A stretch of DNA of 64,000 nucleotides. Source: Luteibacter aegosomatissinici (lineage in GTDB: Bacteria > Pseudomonadota > Gammaproteobacteria > Xanthomonadales > Rhodanobacteraceae). Positions 10,756-14,206 of this stretch are shown piece after piece (positions within the stretch are counted from its first letter, which is position 1; the number at the start of each line of letters is the position of its first letter). Made by a program: the position numbers and the translations under genes. Location: assembly GCF_023078495.1 (NCBI RefSeq), contig NZ_CP095742.1, forward strand, positions 4,030,001 to 4,094,000. Direction: 5' to 3'. The notes beneath the pieces were generated by a model. That model searched no databases. It had not been told where the DNA came from and saw only the letters and a program-made list of their open reading frames with translations.

Positions 10756-11508
10756 ATGGCCTTCCTGCCCCGGCTCGCCGGCCTGCTCGCCCTCTCGCTT
10801 ACCGTATCCGCCAGCGCCTTCGAGGCACCGGCGTCGTGGTCCGTGTCGCGGCAGATGATCGTGGTCACCACCGGCGGCTGGAACGATATCCAGGGCACGC
10901 TGCGCACCTATACGCGTGAGGGTGGCACATGGAAGCAGGTGAGCGAGCCCGCACCCGTCGTGATCGGCAAGACCGGTAGCGCGTGGGGCGTTGGGCTTTC
11001 GCCACCGCAATCCAACGGGCCGCAGAAGCGCGAGGGCGATGGCCGCAGCCCCGCCGGCATCTTCCGCGTCGGCACCGCCTTCGGCTACGCCGAATCCAAC
11101 CCGACCGCCCTGCCCTACAAGGGCCTGACGGCCTCTGACTACTGCGTGGACGTGGACGGTTCGCCTTACTACAACCAGCTCGTCGACGAAAAGAAAGTCG
11201 GCGAGAAGGCGGTGGCGGGCGCTACCGAGGCGATGCGCCGCGATATCCATTTCCAGGGCGACCACGCCTACCGCATCGGCTTCGTCATCGAGCACAACCC
11301 CGATGGAAAGAAGGGGGCCGGTAGCTGCATCTTCGCGCACCTGTGGAAGACCCCGACCTCGGGCACGGCCGGCTGTACCGCCATGGCCGACACCACGATG
11401 GAGCGGCTGCTGGCGTGGCTGGATCCGTCGAAGAAGCCCGTCGTCGTGCTGCTGCCCAAGGCCGAATACGCCCGACTGCGTGATGCATGGAACCTGCCCG
11501 CCCTATGA
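10756..11508 (+). CDS. Secreted YkuD/L,D-transpeptidase-fold protein
   Basis: 250 residues with an N-terminal signal peptide (LAGLLALSLTVSASA). The C-terminal part has a YkuD-like catalytic pattern: His in FAHLWKTPTSGTAGCTAM and Cys in the TAGCTAM tail, plus GDGRSPAGIFRVG, typical of the ErfK/YbiS/YnhG superfamily. Members form or trim meso-Dap cross-links or attach lipoproteins in the periplasm. The sequence is of the short single-domain kind without LysM. It starts 16 bases after the regulator gene, and its stop overlaps the next start (ATGA), so it belongs to the same operon. It could be an L,D-carboxypeptidase rather than a transpeptidase, which would suit peptide breakdown. Confidence 0.85.
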   Translation: MAFLPRLAGLLALSLTVSASAFEAPASWSVSRQMIVVTTGGWNDIQGTLRTYTREGGTWKQVSEPAPVVIGKTGSAWGVGLSPPQSNGPQKREGDGRSPAGIFRVGTAFGYAESNPTALPYKGLTASDYCVDVDGSPYYNQLVDEKKVGEKAVAGATEAMRRDIHFQGDHAYRIGFVIEHNPDGKKGAGSCIFAHLWKTPTSGTAGCTAMADTTMERLLAWLDPSKKPVVVLLPKAEYARLRDAWNLPAL

Positions 11509-12611
11509 GCTCGTACGATGTCATCGTGATCGGCGCGGGGATCGCGGGCGCATCGGTCGCCTGGTTCCTCGCCCCGCACGCGCGGGTGCTCGTGCTCGAG
11601 CGCGAGGTGTTCGCCGGCATGCACACCACCGGCCGTTCGGCGGCGCACTTCAGCGAGACCTACGGCTCGGCGCAGGTGCGTGCGCTATCGCGCGCCACGC
11701 GTCCCTTCCTCGACAACCCGCCTGCGGGCTTCTCACACCACCCGATCCTGCACACCCGTGGCTCGATGGTCGTCGCGCGCGCAGAGCAGGAAGCGCAGCT
11801 GCGTGCGGACTTCGAGCTCATGCGTGCCAGCACGCCCAGCCTGGCGTGGTTCGATGGCGATGCGGTCCACGATGCCGTGCCCGTGCTTCGACGCAAGGCA
11901 GCCCACGCGGCCATCTGGGAGCCCGAGGCGGCGGATATCGACGTGAACGAATTGCACCAGGCGTTCCTGCGCGGGGCGAAAACACGCGGCGCCACCGTGC
12001 AACTGGATACCGACGTGCGCAGCCTCACCCGGGAAGCCGGCGGCTGGTGCATCAACGGCAGCCTCCAGGCGCCGATCGTCGTCAACGCCGCGGGGGCGTG
12101 GGCGGATGTGATCGCCAGCCTTGCTGGCGTCGCCCCCATCGGACTTGAACCACGTCGCCGCTCAGCCTTCCTGTTCGAACCGCCCGAGGGTATCGCCACG
12201 CAAGATTGGCCCTTCGTCGTCGATCTCGACGAGTCGTACTACTTCAAACCCGATGCCGGCCTGCTGCTCGGCTCCGCCGCCAACGCGGATCCCACCCACC
12301 CGCATGATGTGCAGCCGGAGGAATACGACATCGCGCTGGGCATCCACCAGATCGAAGAAGCCACCACCATGAGCATCCGCCGCCCGACCCGCACATGGGC
12401 CGGCCTGCGCAGCTTCGTGCCCGATGGCGACCTGGTCGGCGGCTTCGCGGCGGATGCACCCGGCTTCTTCTGGCTGGCGGCGCAAGGTGGCTATGGCATC
12501 CAGACCAGCGCGGCCATGGCCGAGGCCTGCGCGTCGATCATCCTCGGCCACGCCATGCCAGCGCATCTCGCCGACGCGGGCATCAGCGCGGGGATGCTTG
12601 CACCACGATGA
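11505..12611 (+). CDS. FAD-dependent oxidoreductase (DadA/glycine oxidase-like)
   Basis: 368 residues from the ATG that overlaps the preceding stop. The N-terminal Rossmann motif is VIVIGAGIAGASVAWFLAP, followed by a DAO-family substrate region and a C-terminal FAD-contacting stretch (GFFWLAAQGGYGIQTSAAMA). The length fits glycine/sarcosine/D-amino-acid oxidase relatives (350-400 residues). In this operon it could oxidise D-amino acids released from murein peptides by the M19, NlpC/P60 and epimerase steps; that assignment is inference from context. It is the last gene of the run; the DnaA-box repeat region begins just downstream. Confidence 0.88.
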   Translation: MSSYDVIVIGAGIAGASVAWFLAPHARVLVLEREVFAGMHTTGRSAAHFSETYGSAQVRALSRATRPFLDNPPAGFSHHPILHTRGSMVVARAEQEAQLRADFELMRASTPSLAWFDGDAVHDAVPVLRRKAAHAAIWEPEAADIDVNELHQAFLRGAKTRGATVQLDTDVRSLTREAGGWCINGSLQAPIVVNAAGAWADVIASLAGVAPIGLEPRRRSAFLFEPPEGIATQDWPFVVDLDESYYFKPDAGLLLGSAANADPTHPHDVQPEEYDIALGIHQIEEATTMSIRRPTRTWAGLRSFVPDGDLVGGFAADAPGFFWLAAQGGYGIQTSAAMAEACASIILGHAMPAHLADAGISAGMLAPR

Positions 12612-12630
12612 GCATGTTTTGACCAGCGCA

Positions 12631-12711
12631 ACGCAAGTGCTTGTCGCAACTTATGAGACGCGGGTTATCCACACTGTTATGCAGTTGATACCCACATGGG
12701 CTGTGGATATC
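12631..12711 (+). repeat. DnaA-box module 1
   Basis: Boxes: TTATCCACA at 12665-12673, TTATGCAG at 12677, ATACCCACA at 12688-12696 and inverted TGTGGATAT at 12702-12710. An ACGCAAGTG element precedes them, shared with the other modules. Confidence 0.8.
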
Positions 12712-12714
12712 AGC

Positions 12715-12790
12715 GATCGCGCGCACGCTCGCTCCTGCAGGTTCGTCTCACCTGGCAGTGGTCTTTTGTAGGAGCGAGCCTGCGCGCGAT
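12715..12790. repeat. REP inverted pair between DnaA-box modules 1 and 2
   Basis: A minus-oriented unit at 12715-12740 and a plus-oriented unit at 12767-12790 (head TGTAGGAGC, imperfect GCGAGC/GCGCGC stem). Confidence 0.75.
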
Positions 12791-12803
12791 AGCCATCCGC
12801 GAT

Positions 12804-12906
12804 GTGGTCACGAACTGACCACGATGACGCAAGTCGCTGTCTCAGTTCATGAGACGCGACTTATCCACACGGTTATGCAGGCGATACCCACACACCCTGT
12901 GGATAT
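12804..12906 (+). repeat. DnaA-box module 2 with upstream hairpin
   Basis: Hairpin GTGGTCA (12804-12810) / TGACCAC (12816-12822), then boxes at 12861 (TTATCCACA), 12873 (TTATGCAG), 12884 (ATACCCACA) and 12898 (TGTGGATAT, inverted). Confidence 0.8.
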
Positions 12907-12949
12907 CGGCCGGCTTGCCCACCGCATGCTGGTCATGAAATAAGCAGTG

Positions 12950-13031
12950 CAATGCAAGTCGTTGTCGGCTAATGCCGAATGCGAGTTATGCACATGCTTA
13001 TGCAGGGCGTATCCACATTCGCTGTGGATAT
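12950..13031 (+). repeat. DnaA-box module 3
   Basis: Boxes at 12986 (TTATGCACA), 12998 (TTATGCAG), 13009 (GTATCCACA) and 13023 (TGTGGATAT, inverted), preceded by a degenerate ATGCAAGTCGTTGTC element. Confidence 0.8.
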
Positions 13032-13032
13032 C

Positions 13033-13062
13033 GCGGCATCACGGGCAAGCTCGCTCCTACAG
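13033..13062 (-). repeat. Degenerate single REP between DnaA-box modules 3 and 4
   Basis: A minus-oriented unit ending in GCTCCTACAGG with a degraded stem (GGGCAAGCTC). Confidence 0.55.
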
Positions 13063-13090
13063 GTGGTCTTCGCGTGCGGCTACCCGCGCG

Positions 13091-13193
13091 GTGGTCATGT
13101 ACTGACCACGATGATGCAAGTGGTTGTTCTGTACCGCGCAACGCGACTTATCCACACGGTTATGCAGCCGGTATCCACACAAGCTGTGGATGC
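13091..13193 (+). repeat. DnaA-box module 4 with upstream hairpin
   Basis: Hairpin GTGGTCA (13091-13097) / TGACCAC (13103-13109), then boxes at 13148 (TTATCCACA), 13160 (TTATGCAG), 13171 (GTATCCACA) and 13185 (TGTGGATGC, inverted). Confidence 0.8.
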
Positions 13194-13274
13194 ATCGCTT
13201 CGGCATTTCGTTCGAACTGCTACCGCTACTCAGCGGAAAACGAACGGCGCATGCGCCGGTACGCGATCGAAGCC

Positions 13275-13306
13275 AAAAAAAAGGCCCCGCCGAAGCGGGG
13301 CCCTTT
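13275..13306 (-). terminator. Rho-independent terminator of sucCD
   Basis: On the minus strand an 8-bp GC stem (GGCCCCGC at 13283-13290 pairs with 13295-13302, loop of four) is followed by a run of eight T. It sits about 30 bases past the sucD stop. Confidence 0.93.
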
Positions 13307-13333
13307 CATCGTTTCGCCGAAGCGAACGGGGTA

Positions 13334-14206
13334 TTACTTCATCAGACCGGCGAGGGTCTTGCCGAGGTCGGCCGGCGACTTCACCGTGGTGACGCCTGCC
13401 TTCTCGAGAGCCGCGAACTTGGCTTCCGCCGTGCCCTTGCCGCCCGAGATGATCGCACCGGCGTGGCCCATGCGCTTGCCCGGGGGAGCCGAGGCGCCCG
13501 CGATGAACGACACGACCGGCTTCTTGACGTACTGGCTGATGAACTCAGCCGCGTCTTCTTCCGCGCTGCCGCCGATTTCGCCGACCATGATGATGCCTTC
13601 GGTCTGCGGATCGTCCTGGAACAGCTTCAGGCAGTCGATGAAGTTCAGGCCGTTGATCGGGTCGCCACCGATACCGATGCAGGTGGACTGGCCGAGGCCT
13701 TCGTTCGTGGTCTGGAAGACCGCTTCGTACGTCAGGGTGCCCGAACGCGAAACGATACCGACCTTGCCCGGCTTGTGGATGTGGCCCGGCATGATGCCGA
13801 TCTTGCACTCACCCGGGGTGATGACACCCGGGCAGTTCGGACCGACGAGCACGACATCCGGGTTCGACTTCAGCACGTTCTTCACGCGCATCATGTCGAG
13901 GACGGGGATGCCTTCGGTGATGGCCACGATGACCTTGATGCCGCTATCGATGGCTTCGAGGATCGAATCGGCAGCGAACGGAGGCGGCACGAAGATGACC
14001 GAGGCATCGGCCTTGGTCTGGTCGACAGCCTGGCGCACGGTGTTGAACACCGGCAGGCCAATGTGCTCGGAACCACCCTTGCCCGGGGTCACGCCACCCA
14101 CGACCTGGGTACCGTAATCGAGAGCCTGCTGGGCGTGGAACGTGCCCTGCTGGCCGGTAAAGCCCTGGACGAGGACCTTGGTGTTCTTGTTGATCAGGAC
14201 GCTCAT
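13334..14206 (-). CDS. sucD: Succinyl-CoA synthetase alpha subunit
   Basis: 290 residues from [15 protein letters not shown]. The CoA-binding Rossmann domain comes first ([18 protein letters not shown]), then the ATP-citrate lyase/succinyl-CoA ligase domain with the phosphohistidine loop ([18 protein letters not shown]). With SucC it makes succinate plus a nucleoside triphosphate from succinyl-CoA in the TCA cycle. An earlier in-frame ATG at 14308 lies inside sucC and is not used; the chosen ATG has a GGAGCG site. It follows sucC after 13 bases and ends at a strong terminator. Confidence 0.98.

Follow-up and report, generated by a model that had tools for sequence, protein, structure and literature searches.

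Compact modules with a DARS2-like order of predicted DnaA, IHF and Fis sites form a tandem array in Luteibacter aegosomatissinici

An array of four modules between two convergent genes

The window analysed here is a stretch of 64,000 nucleotides taken from the 4,994,364-base single contig of Luteibacter aegosomatissinici, which starts at dnaA. In this window, the convergent gap between a gene for an FAD-dependent oxidoreductase and sucD is filled by four modules of ∼105 bp (12607-13194, Table 1). From left to right, each module holds a predicted Fis site, an IHF-like site and four DnaA boxes (B1 to B4), and the stop codon of the oxidoreductase gene lies inside the start of module 1, within the left half of its palindrome. 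An earlier reading of the same DNA, hereafter the original prediction, had placed the starts of the four box blocks exactly, had seen that both flanking genes are directed into the gap and had described TTATGCAG at +12, a box ending in CCACA at +23 and TGTGGAT at +37, all of which are present in each copy. It took the box block as the repeated unit; the block is indeed repeated, but the true unit is larger, ∼105 nt from 12607 for the first copy.

The box spacing (0/+12/+23/+37) is identical in all four modules of the window. The combined spaced box pattern has exactly four matches in the window, all of them the modules, and none in 100 shuffled sequences, while TTATNCACA occurs four times in the 64 kb, always at the array (shuffle mean 0.39; one of 100 shuffles reached four). 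Modules 2 and 4 have in common the palindrome GTGGTCA-N5-TGACCAC, separated from the first box by 38 bases, as had been noted before. This palindrome also exists, in diverged form, in modules 1 (TGAGCA...TGACCA) and 3 (TGGTCA...TAAGCA). As it shows no covariation, it is better read as a Fis site than as the hairpin of the former description; by reading, all four copies match the Fis consensus at this predicted site.

Other repeats are found in the same gap. REP-like repeats (TGTAGGAGCGAGC...) form an inverted pair between modules 1 and 2 and recur between modules 3 and 4. Outside the modules, on the sucD side, an inverted repeat rich in G+C is accompanied by a run of A (of T when read on the sucD strand); it is likely the intrinsic terminator of sucCD.

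The locus does not have the position expected of the replication origin: it is not next to dnaA/dnaN, and dnaA (contig 1-1374) is 19% of the chromosome away from the array, which lies at 4.04 Mb. The absence of dnaA from this region had been correctly reported.

Table 1. Coordinates of the genes, modules and predicted sites at the array, and of the priA-linked element
Feature	Position	Strand	Remarks
FAD-dependent oxidoreductase gene (DAO, PF01266)	11505..12611	+	upstream neighbour
Module 1 (~105 nt)	12607..12713	+	sites read from sequence
Module 1 Fis-like site	12610-12624		GAGCATGTTTTGACC
Module 1 IHF-like site	12631-12643		
Module 1 DnaA boxes B1, B2, B3, B4	12665-12673, 12677-12685, 12688-12696, 12702-12710	+, +, +, -	B2 degenerate
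REP-like repeats, modules 1/2	12713-12793		inverted pair
Module 2	12804..12909	+	sites read from sequence
Module 2 Fis-like site	12806-12820		GGTCACGAACTGACC
Module 2 IHF-like site	12827-12839		
Module 2 DnaA boxes	12861-12869, 12873-12881, 12884-12892, 12898-12906	+, +, +, -	
Module 3	12928..13034	+	sites read from sequence
Module 3 Fis-like site	12931-12945		GGTCATGAAATAAGC
Module 3 IHF-like site	12952-12964		
Module 3 DnaA boxes	12986-12994, 12998-13006, 13009-13017, 13023-13031	+, +, +, -	
REP-like repeats, modules 3/4	13038-13064		
Module 4	13090..13194	+	sites read from sequence
Module 4 Fis-like site	13093-13107		GGTCATGTACTGACC
Module 4 IHF-like site	13114-13126		
Module 4 DnaA boxes	13148-13156, 13160-13168, 13171-13179, 13185-13193	+, +, +, -	
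G+C-rich inverted repeat and A run	13275-13306		likely terminator of sucCD
sucD, succinate-CoA ligase alpha subunit (PF02629, PF00549)	13334..14206	-	downstream neighbour, convergent
priA-linked element	G000:C1:447388-447520; also L271:7389 onwards, L230:1889 onwards		

Distribution, conservation and setting of the module

With a profile (R1) built from the four window copies, this genome yielded eight copies, all at E <= 3.1e-10, against an E-value of 0.43 for the match that comes next. Four are those of the array; another two lie at 809 kb, and single copies at 953 kb and 955.5 kb flank an acyltransferase gene. All 23 searched genomes of the genus carry copies (E <= 1e-3; 3 to 10 per genome, 140 matches), which are largely clustered and in a single orientation. 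With Infernal's stricter filters, under which weak copies may be missed, matches at E <= 1e-6 were obtained in 37 of the 59 genomes sampled in the family, from 17 of the 26 genera represented, the other nine genera giving none, and in 30 of 121 genomes and 15 of 56 genera of the order, all within two families; at E <= 1e-5, the class gave matches in 4 of 229 genomes, namely this genome, two of the order's second family and one of a distant family. Viral contigs contained no exact match of the spaced pattern, and an origin from phages was rejected.

Two variants of this arrangement were observed outside the window. At L063 (4687-5697), six modules follow each other in near-regular steps of ∼181 bp, and at least four of them are almost identical, including an adjoining GTAGGAGCGC repeat; this array is a recent tandem amplification. 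Other genera have, near the first, a second module subtype with a similar Fis and DnaA layout in which GATCAnnCAGATAG replaces CAA-N4-TTG (L091, L094, L097, L098, L100, L102, L103 and L109). Judged by eye, GATCAnnCAGATAG is the better IHF-like match. We also noted two head-to-head, perfect TTATCCACA boxes at a spacing of +29 (G000:C1:4487569 and 4487598), outside any module found.

We compared the distinct genus modules in the loci fetched by then (118, out of the 140 matches), which are not independent of one another. A gap-free alignment over 104 columns accommodates 117 of them, while the copies differ strongly outside the binding sites, and the most conserved columns coincide with DnaA and Fis consensus positions. 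The check proposed in the original prediction, that spacing should be kept while the rest drifts, thus gave the expected outcome. Read on the minus strand and with the box numbers used for E. coli (see later in the text), the module consists of B4 (+) at 0 as box I, B3 (-) at +14 as box II, B2 (-) at +25 as a III-like box and B1 (-) at +37 as an extra box, followed by the IHF-like site and then by the Fis site at +86.

The Fis consensus GnnYAnnnnnTRnnC, as given in the part of PMC8682772 consulted, is matched exactly at one fixed column in 96 of the 118 modules, its two outer bases being invariant. Column permutations gave a mean of 7.4 and a maximum of 69 modules, and none of 300 reached 96. 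The exact site starts at +86 from box I in 93/118 genus modules, and at +86 or +87 in 20/37 and 12/24 modules of two sets from other genera, where its centre is often A/T-rich. No exact Fis site was present in the searched range in 22/118, 10/37 and 7/24 modules, respectively. Between the core and the Fis site, the IHF-like CAA-N4-TTG is conserved, and it matches WATCAANNNNTTR poorly (two or three mismatches in 102/118, a result equalled by 21 of 300 column permutations); the predicted IHF site of the module is therefore weakly supported.

The four boxes were scored against the DnaA box consensus TTWTNCACA. B1 is exact in 78/118 modules and has one mismatch in 39, B2 (TTATGCAGn) has two mismatches in 111/118, and B3 (mostly nTATCCACA) has one in 86/118. 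The inverted B4, also mostly nTATCCACA in the genus, is exact in 44/118 and has one mismatch in 72; in other genera it is often TTTTCCACA, a change permitted by the DnaA consensus. The head-to-head pair of boxes I and II at +14 exists in all four window modules, in 115/118 modules of the genus and in 31/37 and 19/24 modules of the two other sets. In the order's second family, this pair was found in 19/19 loci examined, with an exact Fis site at +86 in only one of the 19.

Outside the window, gene calls come from a home-made script, which makes the following context counts approximate. The fetched loci contain 79 module clusters; the flanking genes are convergent for 39 of these, co-oriented for 36 and divergent for 4, and in 64 the B4 end faces the 3' end of a gene. 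By comparison, the window has 8 convergent gaps out of 46, and other DNA of the genus has 12 out of 67. These counts argue against control of ordinary promoters, which the original prediction had also disfavoured. Modules adjoin sucD in seven genomes of the genus. The names MiaA, AccD, DnaQ and S46 peptidase, given by eye to other flanking genes, were left out of the evidence. In 13 single-contig genomes, 26 clusters stand at 3.6% to 47% of the chromosome from the origin, 25 of them >10% away from oriC. A fixed distance from oriC was considered and rejected, as these distances do not depart significantly from uniformity (KS p = 0.08) and orthologous loci cannot count as independent; for the same reasons, a likeness to the position of E. 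coli DARS2 (20.6%) was not used as evidence.

Likeness to DARS loci and a single-copy element at priA

DARS are the switches by which E. coli recharges the replication starter DnaA, and in the model of their action a head-to-head pair of boxes carries the DnaA-DnaA contact. We fetched the E. coli K-12 loci and read their boxes from the sequence. In both DARS1 and DARS2, box I (+, position 0) is followed by two opposed boxes, II (-) at +14 and III (-) at +26. On the side of box III, DARS2 continues with IHF-like sites and, beyond them, Fis sites, with an exact Fis consensus at +145. Excerpts of the literature describe the order core-IHF-Fis of DARS2 and its need of IHF and Fis (PMC4245941, PMC8682772), the independence of DARS1 from protein factors such as Fis or IHF (PMC4585315) and the action of datA through IHF (PMC10380432). 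PMC4245941 states that those gamma-proteobacteria which are related to E. coli have conserved the DARS2 core, and PMC10380432, citing its reference 91, reports conservation of sequences similar to DARS1 and DARS2 in many proteobacterial species. In the excerpts consulted, DARS1 and DARS2 are described as single loci in E. coli and its relatives.

The module resembles DARS2 in several respects: it is intergenic, boxes I and II stand head to head at +14, further boxes lie on the side of box II, and so do the IHF-like and then the Fis site. However, it is far more compact (105 bp versus 455 bp, with Fis at +86 versus +145), occurs in tandem and as copies at multiple loci, and has a weak IHF match. 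The box I/II spacing is also that of DARS1 (TTATCCACT-N5-TGTGGATAA), although DARS1 does without Fis and IHF. With respect to both E. coli loci, box III of the module is degenerate and stands at +25 instead of +26, and a strong extra box is present at +37, which is absent from the E. coli cores as read. Among the four loci tried, the module profile scored DARS1 best, and weakly (7.1 bits, E 0.09). Like the module with its DnaA boxes and IHF-like site, datA is non-coding and combines DnaA boxes with an IHF site; in contrast, the E. coli datA stretch has its head-to-head pair at +12 (TTATTCACA-agc-TGTGGATGA), and the source excerpts mention no Fis site for datA. Of the two models invoked by the original prediction, DARS thus suits the module better, with its pair at +14 and a Fis site at a fixed distance. 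We do not assign the module to DARS, since its box III is degenerate and lies 1 bp off and since it has a strong fourth box; its best reading from the sequence is that of a compact, multi-copy, DARS2-like element that would regulate DnaA.

A second, more canonical element is present in the family. The exact DARS core spacing 0/+14/+26 (at most one mismatch) was detected in 75 of 78 family genomes, representing all 26 genera, while the reversed-pattern control gave no match. It occurs once per genome, except for one genome with two. In 20 of 20 fetched neighbourhoods, this core adjoins the start of one gene family, whose product is PriA by NCBIfam in one genome (L262); this identification and that of a short-chain dehydrogenase were made in L262 only and extended to the other genomes by clustering. 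The priA-linked element has an exact Fis site at +86 in 17/20 cases, at +87 in one and none in two, and an IHF-like site (at most two mismatches) at +120/121 in 19/20. It therefore has the box I/II spacing of the module and, on the same side as there, a Fis site at +86, but differs by a third box at +26 exactly as in E. coli, by an IHF-like site beyond the Fis site and by its single copy per genome. The module profile, built from modules alone, matches the priA-linked element in register in 5 of the 20 at E <= 1e-3 (E 9e-6 to 8e-4). About 80 bases before box I of this element, a further TGGTCA-N5-TAACCA palindrome was observed.

Module and priA-linked core may also be neighbours. In an unbiased count with a limit of 10 kb, a module lies 5 to 8.3 kb from the core in 14 of the 33 genomes outside the genus that have modules. 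Just past the short-chain dehydrogenase gene is where it stands in 13 of the 20 fetched priA neighbourhoods, 14 of which had been picked for a known nearby module. The three neighbourhoods fetched from the window's own genus contain no module at priA, the modules being at other loci there. In a distant gamma-proteobacterial family, a single match (L113:1501-1601) has a core at 0/14/26 and the Fis site GGTCATTTTTTGACC at +86. The module, the priA-linked element and this distant element thus constitute three element classes with a common box I-II spacing of +14 and a Fis site at +86.

PMC10380432 reports DARS-like sequences in many proteobacterial species, so that the priA-linked core may have been described before; with it, the exact spacing of the DARS core reaches another family, in nearly all of the genomes sampled. 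Among literature titles and opening abstracts, we found no description of such arrays or of a DARS element in this group, and we take the compact multi-copy array to be the new part.

Possible roles of the modules in DnaA regulation

The reading that we favour, as a rather probable one judged from the arrangement of sites, is that the module, 105 bp long, would be bound by DnaA, Fis and probably IHF and would regenerate ATP-DnaA as a compact element on the plan of DARS2, of which four copies stand in tandem here. In such a mechanism, DnaA would occupy boxes I (B4) and II (B3) in head-to-head arrangement, and further DnaA would bind B2 and B1. Bending of the DNA by Fis, and perhaps by IHF, would change the DnaA-DnaA contacts, and the changed contacts would release ADP from ADP-DnaA, so that ATP-DnaA would be regenerated between initiations. 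How strong this reactivation is would be set by the number of copies (8 here, and 3 to 10 in each genome of the genus). The genome encodes Hda, IHF alpha and IHF beta, each over its cut-off, and its DnaA shares 56% identity with E. coli DnaA across 466 aligned positions, the stretch GGRDHTTVLHA being common to both. For a Fis-like protein, the best NCBIfam model is Fis (75.9 bits, below its cut-off of 99 bits), and it matches solved Fis structures with E-values down to 1.3e-13. However, with a more canonical DARS core present at priA, the genome may have no need of extra DARS activity. The control of replication through DnaA suggested by the original prediction fits this evidence, though as a family of elements at multiple loci and not as the single locus that it had envisaged.

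The main rival to the DARS2-like reading is titration, to which we give a minor but real chance: the arrays would only hold DnaA, delaying initiation until they are filled, and the Fis site would modulate their occupancy. At three to four boxes per module, the eight modules would offer 24 to 32 boxes. The quality of B1, within one mismatch of the consensus in 117/118 modules, and the multiple copies per genome are in agreement with this role, and titration on the E. coli chromosome is experimentally supported according to a part of PMC12371093. However, boxes are all that titration requires; it has no need of a 104-column layout without gaps, of a constant head-to-head spacing or of a Fis site at +86. 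Moreover, the same source, in the part consulted, has E. coli boxes accumulating near oriC, whereas nearly all clusters here are remote from it. Titration, as put forward by the original prediction, is neither shown nor required by the evidence.

Hydrolysis as at datA, accretion of repeats and a function in RNA are all less likely than titration. A datA-like element would lower ATP-DnaA through IHF-dependent hydrolysis of the ATP on DnaA (DDAH). DnaA boxes combined with an IHF-like site in non-coding DNA, often at gene ends, would suit it, but its pair at +12 differs from that of the module, and Fis is the best supported accessory site and IHF the poorest, yet datA works via IHF (PMC10380432, in part); we regard such an element as improbable. 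Nor do we lend much more than slight credence to a dispersed extragenic repeat or cassette recombination site (REP/BIME-like or integron attC-like) that collects between convergent genes. This would account for the many loci, for the excess of convergent gaps among the clusters over the two baselines, for the genes lying between co-oriented modules in some genomes and for the one tandem amplification of a module with its neighbouring repeat at L063. Against it, the sequences diverge outside the sites while the spacing is kept in all modules but one, conservation culminates at DnaA and Fis consensus positions, and the spaced pattern is lacking in viral contigs. Integron-like cassettes in particular were rejected: genes stand between modules in some genomes, but many arrays have none. 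Finally, an RNA element of the flanking genes (3' UTR hairpins or a terminator) is hardly credible, for although each module has two inverted repeats and the gene before the Fis end is co-oriented in 50/79 clusters, many of them within tens of bases of the stop codon, the RNAalifold covariation term is 0.02 with five invariant pairs only, pairing is no better than in shuffles (113/500 reach the observed value), no Rfam family reaches its gathering score in 12300-13500, and a separate inverted repeat with an A run stands at 13275-13306.

Returning to the DARS2-like reading, a broader and more tentative proposal, which we hold to be possible but would not bet on, is that of a family-wide system of DnaA dosage. 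It would join the canonical DARS at priA with tandem arrays that relocate and consist of a minimal DARS2 of 105 bp (Fis, IHF and DnaA core); the number of its copies, 3 to 10 in genomes of the genus, would tune the regeneration of ATP-DnaA, and the fourth box would make the module a self-contained switch, possibly with negative feedback by ATP-DnaA. As arrays of a 105-bp DARS version with a spacing kept constant in many genera, the modules would provide a minimal system for studying how DnaA nucleotide exchange works, and their natural copy-number variants would serve to test how the dosage of reactivation sets the timing of initiation.
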